64,000 nucleotides of DNA from an uncultured Bacteroidota bacterium (lineage in GTDB: Bacteria; Bacteroidota; Bacteroidia; Flavobacteriales; Flavobacteriaceae). Where the stretch lies: NCBI GenBank assembly GCA_902560045.1, contig CACEKJ010000002.1, positions 26,071 to 90,070 on the forward strand. Reading direction: 5' to 3'. Numbering within the stretch: the first letter of the stretch is position 1; each line of letters starts with the position of its first letter. The notes under the pieces were generated by a model. The model saw only the letters and a program-made list of their open reading frames with translations. It made no database searches and was not told where the DNA came from. A program made the translations under genes and the position numbers. Below, piece by piece: positions 38,110 to 48,569 of the stretch.

Positions 38110-38115
38110 AACAGA

Positions 38116-38160
38116 TGTGACCTCGGAGGGATTCAAACCCCCAACCTTCTGAGCCGTAAT
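38116..38160 (-). repeat. tRNA-Arg 3'-half fragment (outer attachment site of element 1)
   Basis: 47 bp (38114-38160) identical to 41262-41308; diverges exactly after anticodon-loop core GCCGTAAT. Confidence 0.92.
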
Positions 38161-38290
38161 TAGAAAATCTTCCCTGTAAGTAAAATTTTGAATAAATTAT
38201 CAGATTAAATATTAATCTATTAGTTTGTTTTTTTACAGGTTAAAATAGTTAGAAGGACAAAAAAATTATTCATAAACTTTCTTAAAAAAG

Positions 38291-38312
38291 TGTGTCACCA
38301 TATGTGTCACCA
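38291..38312 (+). repeat. Element 1 left arm repeats (2x TGTGTCACCA, 12-bp period)
   Basis: 38291-38300 and 38303-38312. Confidence 0.85.
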
Positions 38313-38363
38313 AAAAATAATTTTTAATTTATCAAGATATAATTAGATTTATTATATTTAATT

Positions 38364-40655
38364 ATGACTAGAGAAGATTTTTTAGAAAAAATTACAACCA
38401 CTGATAATTTAAGATCTGTCTCAAGAATAAAAAATCAAAAATACAACTTTAAGTCTGTAAGCAACTCTGAAAAAGATGAGTTAATAAATCAAGGATGGGA
38501 AATCGACAGAGAAAATGTTAACTCCGTCAGACTAAAAAAACCCAAATTACATTCGGTAATATTTGAAAATAAAGTTTGGTCAGTATTTCAAAAAATGGGA
38601 TACAGCAGATTAAATATTGACAATACATTTAAAATTCCATATTCAAATAACCAAGATATACCTCCGAGACAAATCGATGTTTTTTGTTTTGATGATGATA
38701 CAGCCATAGTAATTGAATGTAAAAGTTCCGAATCCAGAAGACCCAGACCACTTCAAACAATCATAAATGACTTTGCAAATATTCGAGATGGAATAATAAG
38801 GTATTTAAATAGCATTTTTGAAACCAGAAAAAAAGTTAAATTAATTTTAGCTACTAATAATATAGTTGTTTCTGAAAATGATGTAAATAGAATTAAAGAA
38901 AATAACATCCTGTTATTTACACAAGATGATATCAATTATTACGATCAACTGTCTTCTCATTTAGGAGAGGCTTCAAAATATCAATTATTTGGAAGAATAT
39001 TTTCAGGTCAATCTATACCTTCTTTAAAAAATAAAGTTCCTGCAATAAGAGGTAAAATGGGTGGTCATACTTATTATTCATTTTCAATTCAGCCAGAAAA
39101 ATTACTTAAACTTTCTTACATATTACATAATAATACAACCAGTGAAGAAGTAGTTGGAACTTATCAGAGAATGGTAAATAAAAAAAGAATTTCAGACATT
39201 GGTGCCTTTTTAGATTCAAATGATGGAGGTTCTGGATTTTTTCCTAATTCGATTATTGTGAATTTTGACACCAGTGGAAGAAATTTAGTTTTTGATAAAA
39301 TATCATCCGATCACGACGTTGAAGATTGTTCAGTTGGTGTTCTAAAACTTCCAGATAAATTTAGATCTGCATTTATTATTGACGGACAACATAGACTTTA
39401 TGGGTATTCAAAAAGTGAATGGAAATCAAAACATACAATTCCTGTAGTGGCATTTGAAAATCTTCCTGTTGAAAATCAAGTTGATATGTTTGTAAATATC
39501 AATCACAAACAGAAATCTGTTTCACAAAATTTATTGACAACTATTAAAGCTGAACTACATTGGAACTCGCCAATTTATAATAATGCAATTTTTGCAGTAA
39601 TGGCTAGATTATTAATGGAGTTATCTAAAGATAATTCTAGTCCGCTATATGGACGAATAAAGCTTGGGGAAAACAAAAAATCAGATTTGGTTAATATTAC
39701 GTTAGACTATATTATAAGTTACGGATTCAAAAAAACTAATTTTTTTGCTAAGATTTCCAGAAATAGATTGGTGTCTACTGGTCATTTATGGGTTGATGAT
39801 TATTCAAGAATGCTTATTAAAGCAAAAAAGTTTTTTATTCTTATTTTCAAATATATAAAAGAAAAAAGCGAACAAAACTGGGATTTGGGTAGTTCTGGAG
39901 GAGGTTTTATTTCGATGAATATCGGAATTGCTTCAGTTATTCGATTAGTTGATTCTGTAATTAAATTAGATTCTTTATCAAATAACTCACAAATACAAAC
40001 CAAATCTGCAGAGGACATATTTGATATTTGTAAACCGAAGCTAGAACATCTTTCAAATTATATTAACGGCCTAAGTATTTCAGAGATACAAAATTTCAGA
40101 AGTGCCGGTACAGGTGGTCAAGGAAGGGATAATGTTTATAGAGAATTTCAAAACTATATATATCAAAATGATCCAAATTTTAATCCTGATGGCCTACAAG
40201 AATGGATAAGAAATAATTCAGGTGAATTTAATGATTCTGGTACAGAAATGGTAAGAGACTTAGAGCTGAAAATTTTTGATACAGTAAAATCTAAAATCAT
40301 TGAAAAATATAATTTTGGGGCAGAATGGTTACGTCCTGAGGCTATACCTAGAGGTGTTTTAAGTAAAACCTATGAGATGTATAATGAACAAGGACAAAGA
40401 GAGCCACAAGAAAATTTCTTAGACCTAAGCAGCTATAAATCTATTATAGAAAAAGGTGATAACTGGGCAAGTTGTTTTAAAGAGATTTTTACAGACCCAA
40501 GGATTGTCGGAAGCGCAAATAAGGAAAGATCACTTGAATGGATGCTTAAACTAAATGAAATTAGAAGAAAAACTGCTCATCCCACCAGAGCACCAATAAC
40601 TCCTGATGAAAACGATTTCTTAATTTTCTTAAAAAGCTGGTTAATTGATGAGTGA
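38364..40655 (+). CDS. Multidomain PD-(D/E)xK + DGQHR (DndB/DpdB-like) + HEPN-like protein
   Basis: N-term RQIDVF-x-ECK (D105...E118xK120); FIIDGQHRLYGYSK at 39381; C-term LNEIRRKTAHP (Rx4H) at ~40563-40580. Confidence 0.85.
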   Translation: MTREDFLEKITTTDNLRSVSRIKNQKYNFKSVSNSEKDELINQGWEIDRENVNSVRLKKPKLHSVIFENKVWSVFQKMGYSRLNIDNTFKIPYSNNQDIPPRQIDVFCFDDDTAIVIECKSSESRRPRPLQTIINDFANIRDGIIRYLNSIFETRKKVKLILATNNIVVSENDVNRIKENNILLFTQDDINYYDQLSSHLGEASKYQLFGRIFSGQSIPSLKNKVPAIRGKMGGHTYYSFSIQPEKLLKLSYILHNNTTSEEVVGTYQRMVNKKRISDIGAFLDSNDGGSGFFPNSIIVNFDTSGRNLVFDKISSDHDVEDCSVGVLKLPDKFRSAFIIDGQHRLYGYSKSEWKSKHTIPVVAFENLPVENQVDMFVNINHKQKSVSQNLLTTIKAELHWNSPIYNNAIFAVMARLLMELSKDNSSPLYGRIKLGENKKSDLVNITLDYIISYGFKKTNFFAKISRNRLVSTGHLWVDDYSRMLIKAKKFFILIFKYIKEKSEQNWDLGSSGGGFISMNIGIASVIRLVDSVIKLDSLSNNSQIQTKSAEDIFDICKPKLEHLSNYINGLSISEIQNFRSAGTGGQGRDNVYREFQNYIYQNDPNFNPDGLQEWIRNNSGEFNDSGTEMVRDLELKIFDTVKSKIIEKYNFGAEWLRPEAIPRGVLSKTYEMYNEQGQREPQENFLDLSSYKSIIEKGDNWASCFKEIFTDPRIVGSANKERSLEWMLKLNEIRRKTAHPTRAPITPDENDFLIFLKSWLIDE

Positions 40656-41103
40656 CATTATAATATTTGATCTTGATGGAACAATTGCATTAATTGATAA
40701 AAGAAGAGAACTAAGTACTAAGAAAGATTATAAAATTGATTGGGATATTTTTTTTGATCCAAAAAATATTAAACTTGACAAACCTAATTACCCTGTAATT
40801 GAATTATTAAAGCTATTAAAATCAAAAGGATTTAAAATTTTTATTCTTAGTGGTAGATTAAATACAACAAAAGAAGCAACCTTAGAATGGTTGCACAAAA
40901 ATGATATTGAATTTGACCAAATAAAAATGAGAAAAAATACTATTAAAGGTAAATATATTTCTGATGTTGAACTAAAGGAAAAATGGATGACGGAAATTGG
41001 AAAAGAAAATATTTTTTGTGTATTTGACGATAGAAATGCTCTAGTTGAAATGTGGAGAAGAAATGGACTTACCTGCTTTCAAGTAGCAGATGGAAATTTT
41101 TAG
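40648..41103 (+). CDS. HAD-superfamily phosphatase resembling polynucleotide kinase 3'-phosphatase domain
   Basis: IIFDLDGTIALIDKR, FILSGRLNTTKEATLEWL, FCVFDDRNALVEMWRRNGLTCFQVADG; ATG overlaps upstream stop by 8 bp. Confidence 0.8.
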   Translation: MSDIIIFDLDGTIALIDKRRELSTKKDYKIDWDIFFDPKNIKLDKPNYPVIELLKLLKSKGFKIFILSGRLNTTKEATLEWLHKNDIEFDQIKMRKNTIKGKYISDVELKEKWMTEIGKENIFCVFDDRNALVEMWRRNGLTCFQVADGNF

Positions 41104-41144
41104 AAGTTAGCTTATTTAATTATTCTTCTAAATACTTCAAGCTG

Positions 41145-41224
41145 TGTGTCACCAAATGTGTCACCAATTAGGAAAATAAATTTGAAAATTAAAAAAACAA
41201 AAAATAGACTAATTTGTGTCACCA
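41145..41224 (+). repeat. Element 1 right arm repeats (3x TGTGTCACCA)
   Basis: 41145-41154, 41157-41166 (12-bp period), 41215-41224. Confidence 0.85.
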
Positions 41225-41230
41225 AAAAAG

Positions 41231-41259
41231 AAAGACCCACTACAAAAAGCGAGTCTTTA
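41231..41259 (-). terminator. Element-supplied tRNA-Arg terminator copy
   Basis: AAAGACCCACT...AGCGAGTCTTT imperfect hairpin, diverged copy of 38078-38109. Confidence 0.6.
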
Positions 41260-41265
41260 CTGATG

Positions 41266-41339
41266 TGACCTCGGAGGGATTCAAACCCCCAACCTTCTGA
41301 GCCGTAATCAGATGCACTATTCAGTTATGCTACGAGGCC
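41266..41339 (-). tRNA. tRNA-Arg(ACG), intact
   Basis: GGCCTCG acceptor paired with CGAGGTC; anticodon arm TCTGA-TTACGGC-TCAGA (ACG); T-arm GGGGG-TTTGAAT-CCCTC. Confidence 0.95.
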
Positions 41340-41384
41340 GTTATATTCTTAAAATTGCTACTTTGTAAATCTCTTAAAAAATAC

Positions 41385-41408
41385 GTGGGTACAACGTGGG
41401 GTACAACG
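41385..41408 (+). repeat. Element 2 left arm repeats (GTGGGTACAACGTGGGGTACAACG)
   Basis: GGGTACAACG at 41387 and 41399. Confidence 0.85.
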
Positions 41409-41525
41409 ACTATATTTCTTAGGCTCTTTTACAGAGTGCAACGTGTCTGCAAATATATCTTTATTTTTTTTAAACTTAAAAGAGAATATCCCTATGAGTT
41501 AAAAAAAATTCATAGGTTTATTGTA

Positions 41526-42251
41526 ATGAAATTTGCATTACATAATGGTGAGAGAAAAGAAGCTGAAATTAACTTAAAAGGTGCTGTATGCCAAGTATGT
41601 AAGGCAGAAGTAATTGCGAAATGTGGTGATGTGAAAATTCATCATTGGGCTCACAAAAGTAAAAGAAAATGTGACCATTGGTGGGAAAATGAAACTAAAT
41701 GGCATAGAGACTGGAAAAATCAGTTTTCAAAAGATTGGCAAGAAGTTGTACATTCTTCAGAAACCGGAGAGCGACATATTGCAGATATAAAAACACCAAA
41801 GGGTTTAGTAGTAGAATTTCAGCACTCCCCTATTAAACCAGAAGAAATACTTGCAAGAAATACTTTTTATAAAAACATAATATGGATAGTCGATGGTAAA
41901 AGGAGAAAATATGATGAAAAAAAGTTTAAAGAAGTAATAGACCCTACATCAGGAGCGTGGGAGTTTTGGTATTATTCACCATTATTAAGGGATTGGTCTC
42001 GTATTCAAAAACCTGTATTTTTTGATTTTGGAGGGCCAAAATTATACGTGGTGTTTGAGGGTGAGATTAAAGATTTTGATAAAGTGGATTTTATTGAAGC
42101 TGTAAAAATGGGTGGTAATGGTAAAACATTGTTACATCTATTAAAAGAGAAAACTAAAATAGCTAAGATTAAAGATGAATACGTTAGGAATTCCATCAAA
42201 GAAAAGAAAGAAAAAAGAACATTTGCTAGTGTAAGAAAAAGAGGATATTGA
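41526..42251 (+). CDS. CoiA-like nuclease (competence protein CoiA-like family)
   Basis: MKFALHNGERKEAE start; VCQVCKAEV..HHWAHKS Zn-binding-like motif; HIADIKTPKGLVVEFQHS (D...ExQ). Start trimmed from ORF-track 41355. Confidence 0.8.
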   Translation: MKFALHNGERKEAEINLKGAVCQVCKAEVIAKCGDVKIHHWAHKSKRKCDHWWENETKWHRDWKNQFSKDWQEVVHSSETGERHIADIKTPKGLVVEFQHSPIKPEEILARNTFYKNIIWIVDGKRRKYDEKKFKEVIDPTSGAWEFWYYSPLLRDWSRIQKPVFFDFGGPKLYVVFEGEIKDFDKVDFIEAVKMGGNGKTLLHLLKEKTKIAKIKDEYVRNSIKEKKEKRTFASVRKRGY

Positions 42252-42280
42252 TGTTAAGGATTTAAATGAAGAAGATATGC

Positions 42281-43444
42281 TTATGATTTAGACGGGTTAA
42301 AGTCGAAAGGATGTTCTTTGTATTCATTAGTTCTTTTTCCGTCTTTGTATTTGACTATTTTTTTAGGTTTGCCATCGTCAAAAGTTTCAATAATCTCATA
42401 ACCATTAAAAATCTTCTTTTCTTCACCAATATATGTCAGCTCATCAATAATTGTTAGGGCTTCTTTTGGAAAAGCATATTGTTCATTATTATTTTTAACA
42501 TTGCTAAGAGTTTTTTCTATAGATTTTTTTGTTTCCCAAAATTTCTCAAATTCTTTTTCAGATTTCCCTGTAGATGCTATATACTGTTCTTTAAAATTCT
42601 CTTTTATCAATCCGTCTATTAATACTGTGTCATCTAATTTTCCTGAAAAAAGCCTTAGAGTTGATGCATATTTTTCAAACATAAATCTATTAATACAAAT
42701 CAAATTTGGCCTATAGTTACTTTCATTTTTATTTGCGGGAAGCGTTACAAACTCAATTCTTTCCCCCCTTTTTATCTTTTCCAATCTTTCCTCATTTTTT
42801 ATCTTCGCCAATCTATCCTCAATAAGTTTCTTTTTAGTGTAATATTTAATTATTTGCTCAACGTTTAAAGAAACACCTTGTTCTGAAAACCATTTTTGAT
42901 TAAATATATCATAGTTTTTATTTGACCTACCATTTATTGATTCAATTGTACCCACCTTAATTGTATTACTACCATTAATAGAGAGATAATGGTCTTTCGT
43001 TAAATACCCCGACAAACTAAAATCATCTTCATAGGCGGCGCTTATTATAATTCCGGTTGAAGATTCTTTAACAATTCTCGAAACACCATCGTCACAATCT
43101 ACTACTTTTTCTTTGTGTAATTTTGCATACTTAGGGTCAACTTTAAGACGCTCTATATGTTTTTGATGTTTTAGTTTTTCTTCTTTTTTTATTGCTTTTA
43201 TTTTTTCTCTTTTTTTATTTTCTTTTTTTTCTACCTCTCCTTCATAATAAACAAGAAATGCAATAAGAAGCAATATTGAACCTATGATATAAAATCCATT
43301 GTACATTAAGTAAGCAGTTAGAATTATAAAACCTGAAAAAATAATCAACCAATATACCAATCTCTTTTTCCTTGTTCTATATTCTTCTATTTTTTTCTTT
43401 TCTTCTTTGGTCTTCTCCCATTTCTCAATGTCCTTGTTTTTCAT
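42281..43444 (-). CDS. Uncharacterised protein with two N-terminal TM helices
   Basis: 387 aa intact ORF, charged coiled N-terminus, two TM segments, no recognised domain. Confidence 0.6.
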   Translation of the reverse strand: MKNKDIEKWEKTKEEKKKIEEYRTRKKRLVYWLIIFSGFIILTAYLMYNGFYIIGSILLLIAFLVYYEGEVEKKENKKREKIKAIKKEEKLKHQKHIERLKVDPKYAKLHKEKVVDCDDGVSRIVKESSTGIIISAAYEDDFSLSGYLTKDHYLSINGSNTIKVGTIESINGRSNKNYDIFNQKWFSEQGVSLNVEQIIKYYTKKKLIEDRLAKIKNEERLEKIKRGERIEFVTLPANKNESNYRPNLICINRFMFEKYASTLRLFSGKLDDTVLIDGLIKENFKEQYIASTGKSEKEFEKFWETKKSIEKTLSNVKNNNEQYAFPKEALTIIDELTYIGEEKKIFNGYEIIETFDDGKPKKIVKYKDGKRTNEYKEHPFDFNPSKS

Positions 43445-43472
43445 ACCTACAATTTACAATTATTTTAAATGT

Positions 43473-43494
43473 GGGTACAACCAAGGGTACAACG
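43473..43494 (+). repeat. Element 2 right arm repeats (2x GGGTACAAC, 12-bp period)
   Basis: GGGTACAACC 43473-43482, GGGTACAACG 43485-43494. Confidence 0.85.
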
Positions 43495-43565
43495 AAAATC
43501 AGTTTATCTGATAAATACTCTGTAAAGTTGATATTGTAAAAAAACCACTAATCTGTAGGTTGGGT

Positions 43566-43604
43566 GCCGTAATCAGATGCACTATTCAGTTATGCTACGA
43601 GGCC
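43566..43604 (-). repeat. tRNA-Arg 5'-half fragment (outer attachment site of element 2)
   Basis: 39-bp identity to 41301-41339; continues into non-tRNA sequence at the anticodon loop. Confidence 0.92.
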
Positions 43605-43615
43605 AATTTTGAACG

Positions 43616-43623
43616 CAAAAATA
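43616..43623 (-). promoter_or_regulatory. Putative original tRNA-Arg -7 box (TATTTTTG)
   Basis: Matches TAnnTTTG, 11 nt upstream of the stranded tRNA 5' end. Confidence 0.5.
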
Positions 43624-48119: not shown

Positions 48120-48569
48120 TTACAAAATATCTGCTGTTTCAATTTTAAACATTGAAGATAATAATATTATAGGTTGCCATTGTTTGCTTTTATAACAATA
48201 TATCGCATGTTCGGTACTTTTTGGCTCCATCAATTCTTTGCTAAGACCCACGTTAACTATGTAATCTTTATCAATTGGGTTTAGTTTTCCAGTTCTTATG
48301 GATTTATGTGAATAATCAATAAGTGTAACTGGCACTTTTTTAAATCCTAACTCTTTTAAAGCAAAAAACCTATGATGTCCATCAATTATTAACATGCTTT
48401 TGTGACAACAAACAATAGATGATATTATATAATAGTTTTCGTAGGACTTGATAAACTTAGCTAGGGAACTCTTCTTTTTTTCAATAACTTTTTCATGAGG
48501 ATTCAATAGGTTAATTTCAACCAATTTTACATCCTTAATTAAATTTTTATCAAAAGCAATTGAATACAT
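48120..48569 (-). CDS. Small stand-alone ParB/Srx-fold-like protein
   Basis: MLIIDGHHRFFALKELGFKKVPVTLIDYS. Confidence 0.65.
   Translation of the reverse strand: MYSIAFDKNLIKDVKLVEINLLNPHEKVIEKKKSSLAKFIKSYENYYIISSIVCCHKSMLIIDGHHRFFALKELGFKKVPVTLIDYSHKSIRTGKLNPIDKDYIVNVGLSKELMEPKSTEHAIYCYKSKQWQPIILLSSMFKIETADIL

Follow-up and report, generated by a model that had tools for sequence, protein, structure and literature searches.

How do two short stretches of DNA come to be stacked in a single tRNA gene when neither of them encodes a recombinase? The locus that raises this question lies at positions 38114–43604 of a 64-kb window (the whole stretch of DNA analyzed, 64,000 nucleotides of contig CACEKJ010000002.1) from an uncultured marine Flavobacteriaceae bacterium, where a tRNA-Arg(ACG) gene and two partial copies of it delimit two elements, here called A and B. 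A first-pass annotation of the window had described both as lacking an integrase and supposed that one encoded elsewhere mobilizes them in trans. The comparisons reported here suggest that A and B are non-autonomous site-specific integrative elements, and that they were probably moved in trans by cognate integrases.

Two insertions in one anticodon loop

A single complete tRNA-Arg(acg) is called by ARAGORN, at 41265–41339 on the minus strand. Exact repeat extension shows that its 3' half and the bases downstream are duplicated over 47 bp (38114–38160 = 41262–41308) and its 5' half over 39 bp (41301–41339 = 43566–43604), all on the minus strand. The only stretch common to the three copies is GCCGTAAT, at 41301–41308 on the same strand, which holds the 7-nt anticodon loop and would be the shared crossover core. 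Element A spans 38161–41300 and element B 41309–43565, with core-to-core lengths of 3148 and 2265 bp. The tRNA coordinates and duplications first reported, and GCCGTAAT as the sole shared stretch, were thus correct to within a few bases, and the two lengths and the count of two genes per element were confirmed.

The comparison with an empty site that had been proposed to check this reading was made within the genus, which is represented by 21 genomes including the source genome, all of them drafts (the source genome is 64 per cent complete, in 45 contigs). In the congener G055 both outer flanks meet at one intact tRNA gene: the joined window flanks (43604–43566 to 38160–38114, minus strand) align with it over the full length of the junction, with the terminator downstream included. 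In G397, G404, and G411 the site is likewise tight and empty, with both flanking genes 34–69 bp from the tRNA. Given the empty site in congeners the region is an insertion, and 38114–38160 and 43566–43604 are the original 3' and 5' halves, displaced to the outer boundaries of A and B, respectively. Two site-specific insertions in the anticodon loop are well supported by these alignments.

The insertions are opposite in polarity. Element A replaces the 3' half of the gene and brings a terminator hairpin (41228–41258, minus strand) with a predicted fold of −14.4 kcal/mol (z −5.1), as against −12.5 kcal/mol for the host terminator; the hairpin is kept in G408 and G398. Element B takes over the 5' half and comes with a promoter-like box. 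The Bacteroidota promoter pattern is TAnnTTTG, and by this pattern TATATTTGC, carried by element B (41449–41457, minus strand), is a likely promoter, and TATTTTTGC, the original host box that element B has cut off from the working gene (43615–43623, minus strand), is promoter-like as well. Of the six B-type left ends in an alignment of element ends, five keep the AAATATA block of TATATTTGC, and that of G398 has it altered. It follows from the two polarities that the working tRNA-Arg gene is a chimera, with its 5' half from element B and its 3' half from element A.

Arm-like repeats at both ends of each element

Each element has a private octamer pair near both of its ends, at 12-bp spacing and in one orientation, a feature that had gone unnoticed in the first-pass annotation. 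In element A the octamer is GTGTCACC, with five matches in the window where 0.27 would be expected, all within the element: an outer pair, GTGTCACC-N4-GTGTCACC, at 38292–38311 (starts 38292 and 38304), 132 bp from the core; an inner pair of the same form at 41146–41165 (starts 41146 and 41158); and a third, single copy by the terminator at 41216–41223, where G408 has a lone GTGTCACG at the same place. In element B the octamer is GGTACAAC, contained within GGGTACAAC, with four matches in the window (0.46 expected), again all within the element (starts 41388, 41400, 43474, and 43486). These form an inner pair, GGGTACAAC-N3-GGGTACAAC, at 41387–41407 and an outer pair of the same form at 43473–43493, 73–93 bp from the core; all coordinates refer to the plus strand. 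An octamer pair at 12-bp spacing that recurred at a second place was seen in none of 200 simulated windows. Among 397 genomes of the family, GTGTCACC-N4-GTGTCACC is restricted to the two ends of element A, and GGTACAAC-N4-GGTACAAC occurs in its own genome solely at the two ends of element B.

These pairs look like arm-type sites of tyrosine integrases, and are treated here as putative ones. With the GCCGTAAT core and arm pairs on both sides, each element has the attachment (att) architecture of such enzymes, and the exact tRNA halves at both ends, together with the exact empty site in congeners, mark the boundaries as att sites. The excised forms would have the attP junctions TTTCTAATTACGGCTCAGAAG (element A) and GCATCTGATTACGGCACCCAACC (element B). 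Because the arm repeats differ, A and B would need different integrases. Mobilization in trans, as first proposed, stands as the best inference from the sequence, while the single integrase of that proposal gives way to two.

Related elements in the genus

The tRNA-Arg core sequence is seen in 16 of the 21 genomes, and elements with the same termini, which the first-pass annotation had recommended searching for, are present in genomes of sister species with other cargo. G408 has a complete A-type element (L347, 7890–9889), in which the 3' half is exact over 45 bp, the arms are GTGTCACG-AGAT-GTGTCACG, and the one gene encodes a GmrSD-like nuclease (GmrSD_N 1.8e-35, GmrSD_C 2.3e-21, PADLOC HEC-06 7e-93). 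The B-type element of G409 (L348, 9990–11942), with left arms GTGCCTAAC and a near copy on the right, encodes a trypsin-like protein, and that of G406 (L346, 10018–11952), with left arms GTGTCCAAC, a secreted PQQ_2-repeat protein with a type IX secretion system tail; none of the three has an integrase. B-type left ends with GTTTACAAC arms are found in G408, G413, and G398, the last of which also has an A-type right end. A-type ends align with one another, as do B-type ends, and the cargo between them is unrelated. Genus-wide, seven of eight matches to a degenerate B-type arm pattern, and four of six to an A-type one, fall at this tRNA-Arg.

Both repeats are identical within each B-type left end, and in the end alignment both change together from one element to another (GGGTACAAC, GTGCCTAAC, GTGTCCAAC, GTTTACAAC). 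The two 5' halves of G406 are not the same: the displaced one has GCTC...AAGC and the working one GCAC...ATGC, a D-stem change that reads as a compensatory pair, and it is the working version that adjoins the G409 element. On the simplest reading of this mismatch, the element imported its half-tRNA from elsewhere.

Since the source assembly is a draft of 45 contigs, and the congener records include metagenome-assembled genomes as well as uncultured marine Bacteroidetes assemblies (AG- and AH- isolates), it might be suspected that the locus is an assembly or amplification chimera, or that its repeats arose by chance. The same architecture recurs in several independent genomes, however, alongside exact empty sites and intact genes, and the repeats are unique in the window and were never matched in the simulations. 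The congeners refute this explanation in practice, and we regard it as extremely improbable.

Beyond the genus, the same tRNA-Arg is accompanied by 12-bp-spaced octamer pairs of different sequences at six loci from other genera of the family; an integrase is present in L038 and L056, and none was detected in L037, L039, L040, or L063. This tRNA-Arg is thus a hotspot in other genera as well.

The search for a cognate integrase

No match to a recombinase was found in A or B in Pfam, NCBIfam, PHROGs, or PADLOC, in agreement with the first-pass annotation, nor did these databases reveal any other integration or transfer gene. A search with PF00589 over the 21 genomes returned XerC/XerD-like proteins and only two further integrases, neither of them at tRNA-Arg. 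One, in the source genome (L071, G000:C8), lies directly beside tRNA-Asn, and the other, in G407 (L396, G407:C6), about 8 kb from tRNA-Asn. As helpers within the source genome, the XerC/XerD-like proteins were rejected for want of an arm domain, and the L003/L071 integrase because it sits at tRNA-Asn without A or B arms.

A search with the arm domain PF17293 was more productive, and led to an integrase-like open reading frame (ORF) in G402 that runs for 486 aa up to the contig end (Phage_int_SAM_5 1.7e-06, Arm-DNA-bind_5 1.4e-05). It is followed in order by arms, a displaced tRNA-Arg 5' half, and a gene homologous to the host gene that lies at position 48120 of the window. The arms, GTGCCTAAC and GTGCCTGAC-N3-GTGCCTAAC, stand directly upstream of the likely GTG start, and their 9-base repeat GTGCCTAAC recurs unchanged in the integrase-less B-type element of G409, a different species. 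By eye the ORF keeps the arginine, arginine, and tyrosine motifs (LRGFYPADI, NARKTF, SASYDD). G402 has, then, an element at the B site that includes an integrase-like gene, and is a candidate helper and not a proven one. The G402 protein had no match in viral contigs, phages, or plasmids.

Arm pairs at the same spacing accompany two true integrases: L458 (PF00589 5.7e-11), beside tRNA-Met, has the pair GGGTACTAT-ATG-GGGTACTA directly upstream of its gene, and L143 has GTGTCACC pairs 31 bp and ∼200 bp upstream. Viral contigs with exact arms were rejected as a source of helpers, since the stretches concerned (119 for GTGTCACC and more than 120 for GGTACAAC) mostly have no integrase nearby; one lies within 1.5 kb in four and five of them, respectively, from apparently varied hosts, and none of the viral arm stretches stands beside the tRNA-Arg of this genus. 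Viral contigs with tRNA-Arg cores were set aside as prophages of other hosts with different arms. In three viral contigs (L249, L269, L199), GGTACAAC is repeated every 12 bp in long tandem arrays, with up to five or six adjacent matched pairs.

Proposed mobilization in trans and its alternatives

The history that we consider probable is one in which A and B inserted successively into the tRNA-Arg(ACG) anticodon loop. Another element would encode a tyrosine integrase whose N-terminus is of the Arm-DNA-bind_5/SAM_5 kind, and this enzyme would bind the arm repeats and recombine at the 7-bp anticodon-loop core, excising or inserting A or B in trans. The tRNA would be kept working throughout by the spare parts that each brings, a 5' half and promoter with B and a 3' half and terminator with A. 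Mobilization in trans is favored because the arms in the window are intact, the ends are conserved, no integrase fragments occur in the five complete elements, and B elements are also found unstacked.

Several observations weigh on the other side. The source genome, which is 64 per cent complete, yielded no cognate integrase, and the genus none with A-type arms. In G402 the contig end cuts the gene short, the catalytic part of the ORF has no PF00589 match, and the arms lie ∼131 bp from the core, as against 73–93 bp in the G409 element. The left and right arms of the G406 element differ. Nor does the source genome offer a helper in an orphan protein of 461 aa that is homologous to the G402 integrase (G000:C10, L462, 7749–9131, minus strand; 22 per cent identity, E 2e-24); it has no apparent catalytic residues, arms, or nearby tRNA, and is possibly a domesticated or dead integrase. 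Movement of A and B is itself deduced from sequence comparison; no excision, circle, or transfer was observed.

It might instead be supposed that A and B are deletion remnants, once autonomous as a prophage, integrative and mobilizable element (IME), or island, which lost their integrase and are now fixed and immobile. Decayed copies in G398 (A and B ends), G413, and G400 with a degenerate 3' half indicate that some elements are dead, which counts for this history and against continuing mobility, and G402 shows that an integrase-like gene is possible at the same site. That gene bears on a test put forward in the first-pass annotation, that an integrase nested in full-length relatives would mark A and B as remnants: matched in its arms, it fits a helper and is also compatible with a deletion origin. 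However, the arms and tRNA halves in the window are perfect at both ends, an integrase fragment is present in none of the five complete small elements, the cargo between conserved ends is wholly different in five cases, and the elements are patchy among species, with empty sites. No remnant of an integrative and conjugative element (ICE) or IME was found in any element; G402 has an integrase-like gene at the same site. We consider a remnant origin unlikely.

Stacking suggests a further possibility, that the elements move in cis, by accretion, only jointly with an autonomous element in the same att site. Both the window and G408, where one partner is a remnant, have elements stacked at one tRNA, as is known for cis-mobilizable elements (CIMEs; PMC5704250). 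Yet each of A and B has a complete private arm set on both sides, for which accretion has no need, and those of G409 and G406 are single, unstacked B elements; accretion seems less likely still than loss of an integrase, and mobilization in trans remains the reading that we prefer.

Cargo

The first gene of element A (38364–40655, plus strand) encodes a 763-aa DGQHR protein related to DndB and DpdB (PF14072 2.7e-15, TIGR03187 5.9e-44, DpdB 4.5e-22), in which an N-terminal PD-(D/E)XK-like stretch is suggested by a weak CARF_PDDEXK match (0.008). Full-length homologues at ∼29 per cent identity are found on alphaproteobacterial plasmids, one of them near another DGQHR gene, whose neighbors are of radical SAM and ATP-binding type. 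The protein had no match in viral contigs, and in phages its DGQHR domain alone was matched. The second ORF (40648–41103, plus strand), which overlaps the end of the first, encodes a PNKP-type HAD phosphatase (PF25109 9.3e-28, phrog_415 6.6e-36), and a role of this cargo in defense or DNA modification is likely from these families. Element B encodes a 241-aa CoiA-like nuclease (41526–42251, plus strand; PF25164 3.6e-08, PF06054 4.2e-05), without a match in phages, and a 387-aa membrane-anchored protein (42281–43444, minus strand) that reached the cut-off of no family. Cargo would thus be defense-like in A-type elements and mixed in B-type ones. A and B showed no gene related to phages, replication, or packaging, and searches of element A DNA against plasmids and of element B DNA against phage records gave no match.

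An integrase-like domain in SdhA

SdhA of the source genome (a 774-aa frame; G000:C4:11973–12302, L448/L455) has an in-frame N-terminal domain homologous to the Arm-DNA-bind domain of integrases. The match to integrase L457/L458 is clear (36 per cent, E 4e-12), whereas a profile comparison with mixed integrases is weak. The fusion is also present in congeners and in G004 (L439, L441–L454, L456), and an arm pair resembling GTGTTACAA-N3-GTGTTACAA, at 12-bp spacing, lies ∼60–80 bp upstream and is kept while the surrounding bases diverge between the species compared. The SdhA N-terminus resembles an integrase domain that has been domesticated, possibly for the regulation of sdh.

Known systems and implications

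CIMEs appear to be the nearest known kind. These elements (for example, in Streptococcus) are att-flanked, have no integration genes, and are stacked at one RNA gene (PMC5704250), and in Dehalococcoides 15 islands at ssrA are without integration modules (PMC3146451). A and B are likewise att-flanked, stacked at one RNA gene, and without integration genes. They differ from CIMEs and the ssrA islands in that elements of their types measure 2–3 kb, with one or two cargo genes that change between conserved ends, and in that A and B keep private arms at both ends and displace opposite tRNA halves. Clusters of attC sites lacking integrases (CALINs) and miniature inverted-repeat transposable elements (MITEs) are also non-autonomous, with conserved ends and a dependence on a foreign recombinase (PMC11389934), a dependence that is presumed for A and B; unlike these, A and B have neither attC sites nor terminal inverted repeats, and combine protein genes with a tyrosine-integrase att architecture in a tRNA gene. 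Phage satellites (phage-inducible chromosomal islands, PICI, and phage-inducible chromosomal minimalist islands, PICMI) and tycheposons are similarly small and cargo-bearing, and occupy tRNA-type or defined sites in marine and other bacteria (PMC10803314, PMC11389934), but they have their own integrase, and A and B have none, nor any phage-related, replication, or packaging gene.

What appears to be new here is a kind of cargo-swapping, arm-coded cassette of less than 4 kb that recurs across a genus. It is tempting, though we hold this only tentatively, to see in it a genus-wide system of interchangeable integrase-less cassettes at one tRNA, in which the conserved ends bear half a tRNA in reserve with a promoter or terminator, a mutable code of two arm repeats picks the foreign integrase, and cargo is freely exchanged. 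If true, such a system would parallel integron cassettes, with a tRNA gene as its base. The concerted change of the two repeats between elements offers a natural test of how arm-site specificity evolves, and the two polarities of insertion are mirror-image ways of keeping a tRNA gene alive. If these inferences hold, very small units of DNA can ride on whichever integrase recognizes their arm code, which would explain how defense-like and other genes arrive in streamlined marine genomes with almost no integrases of their own.

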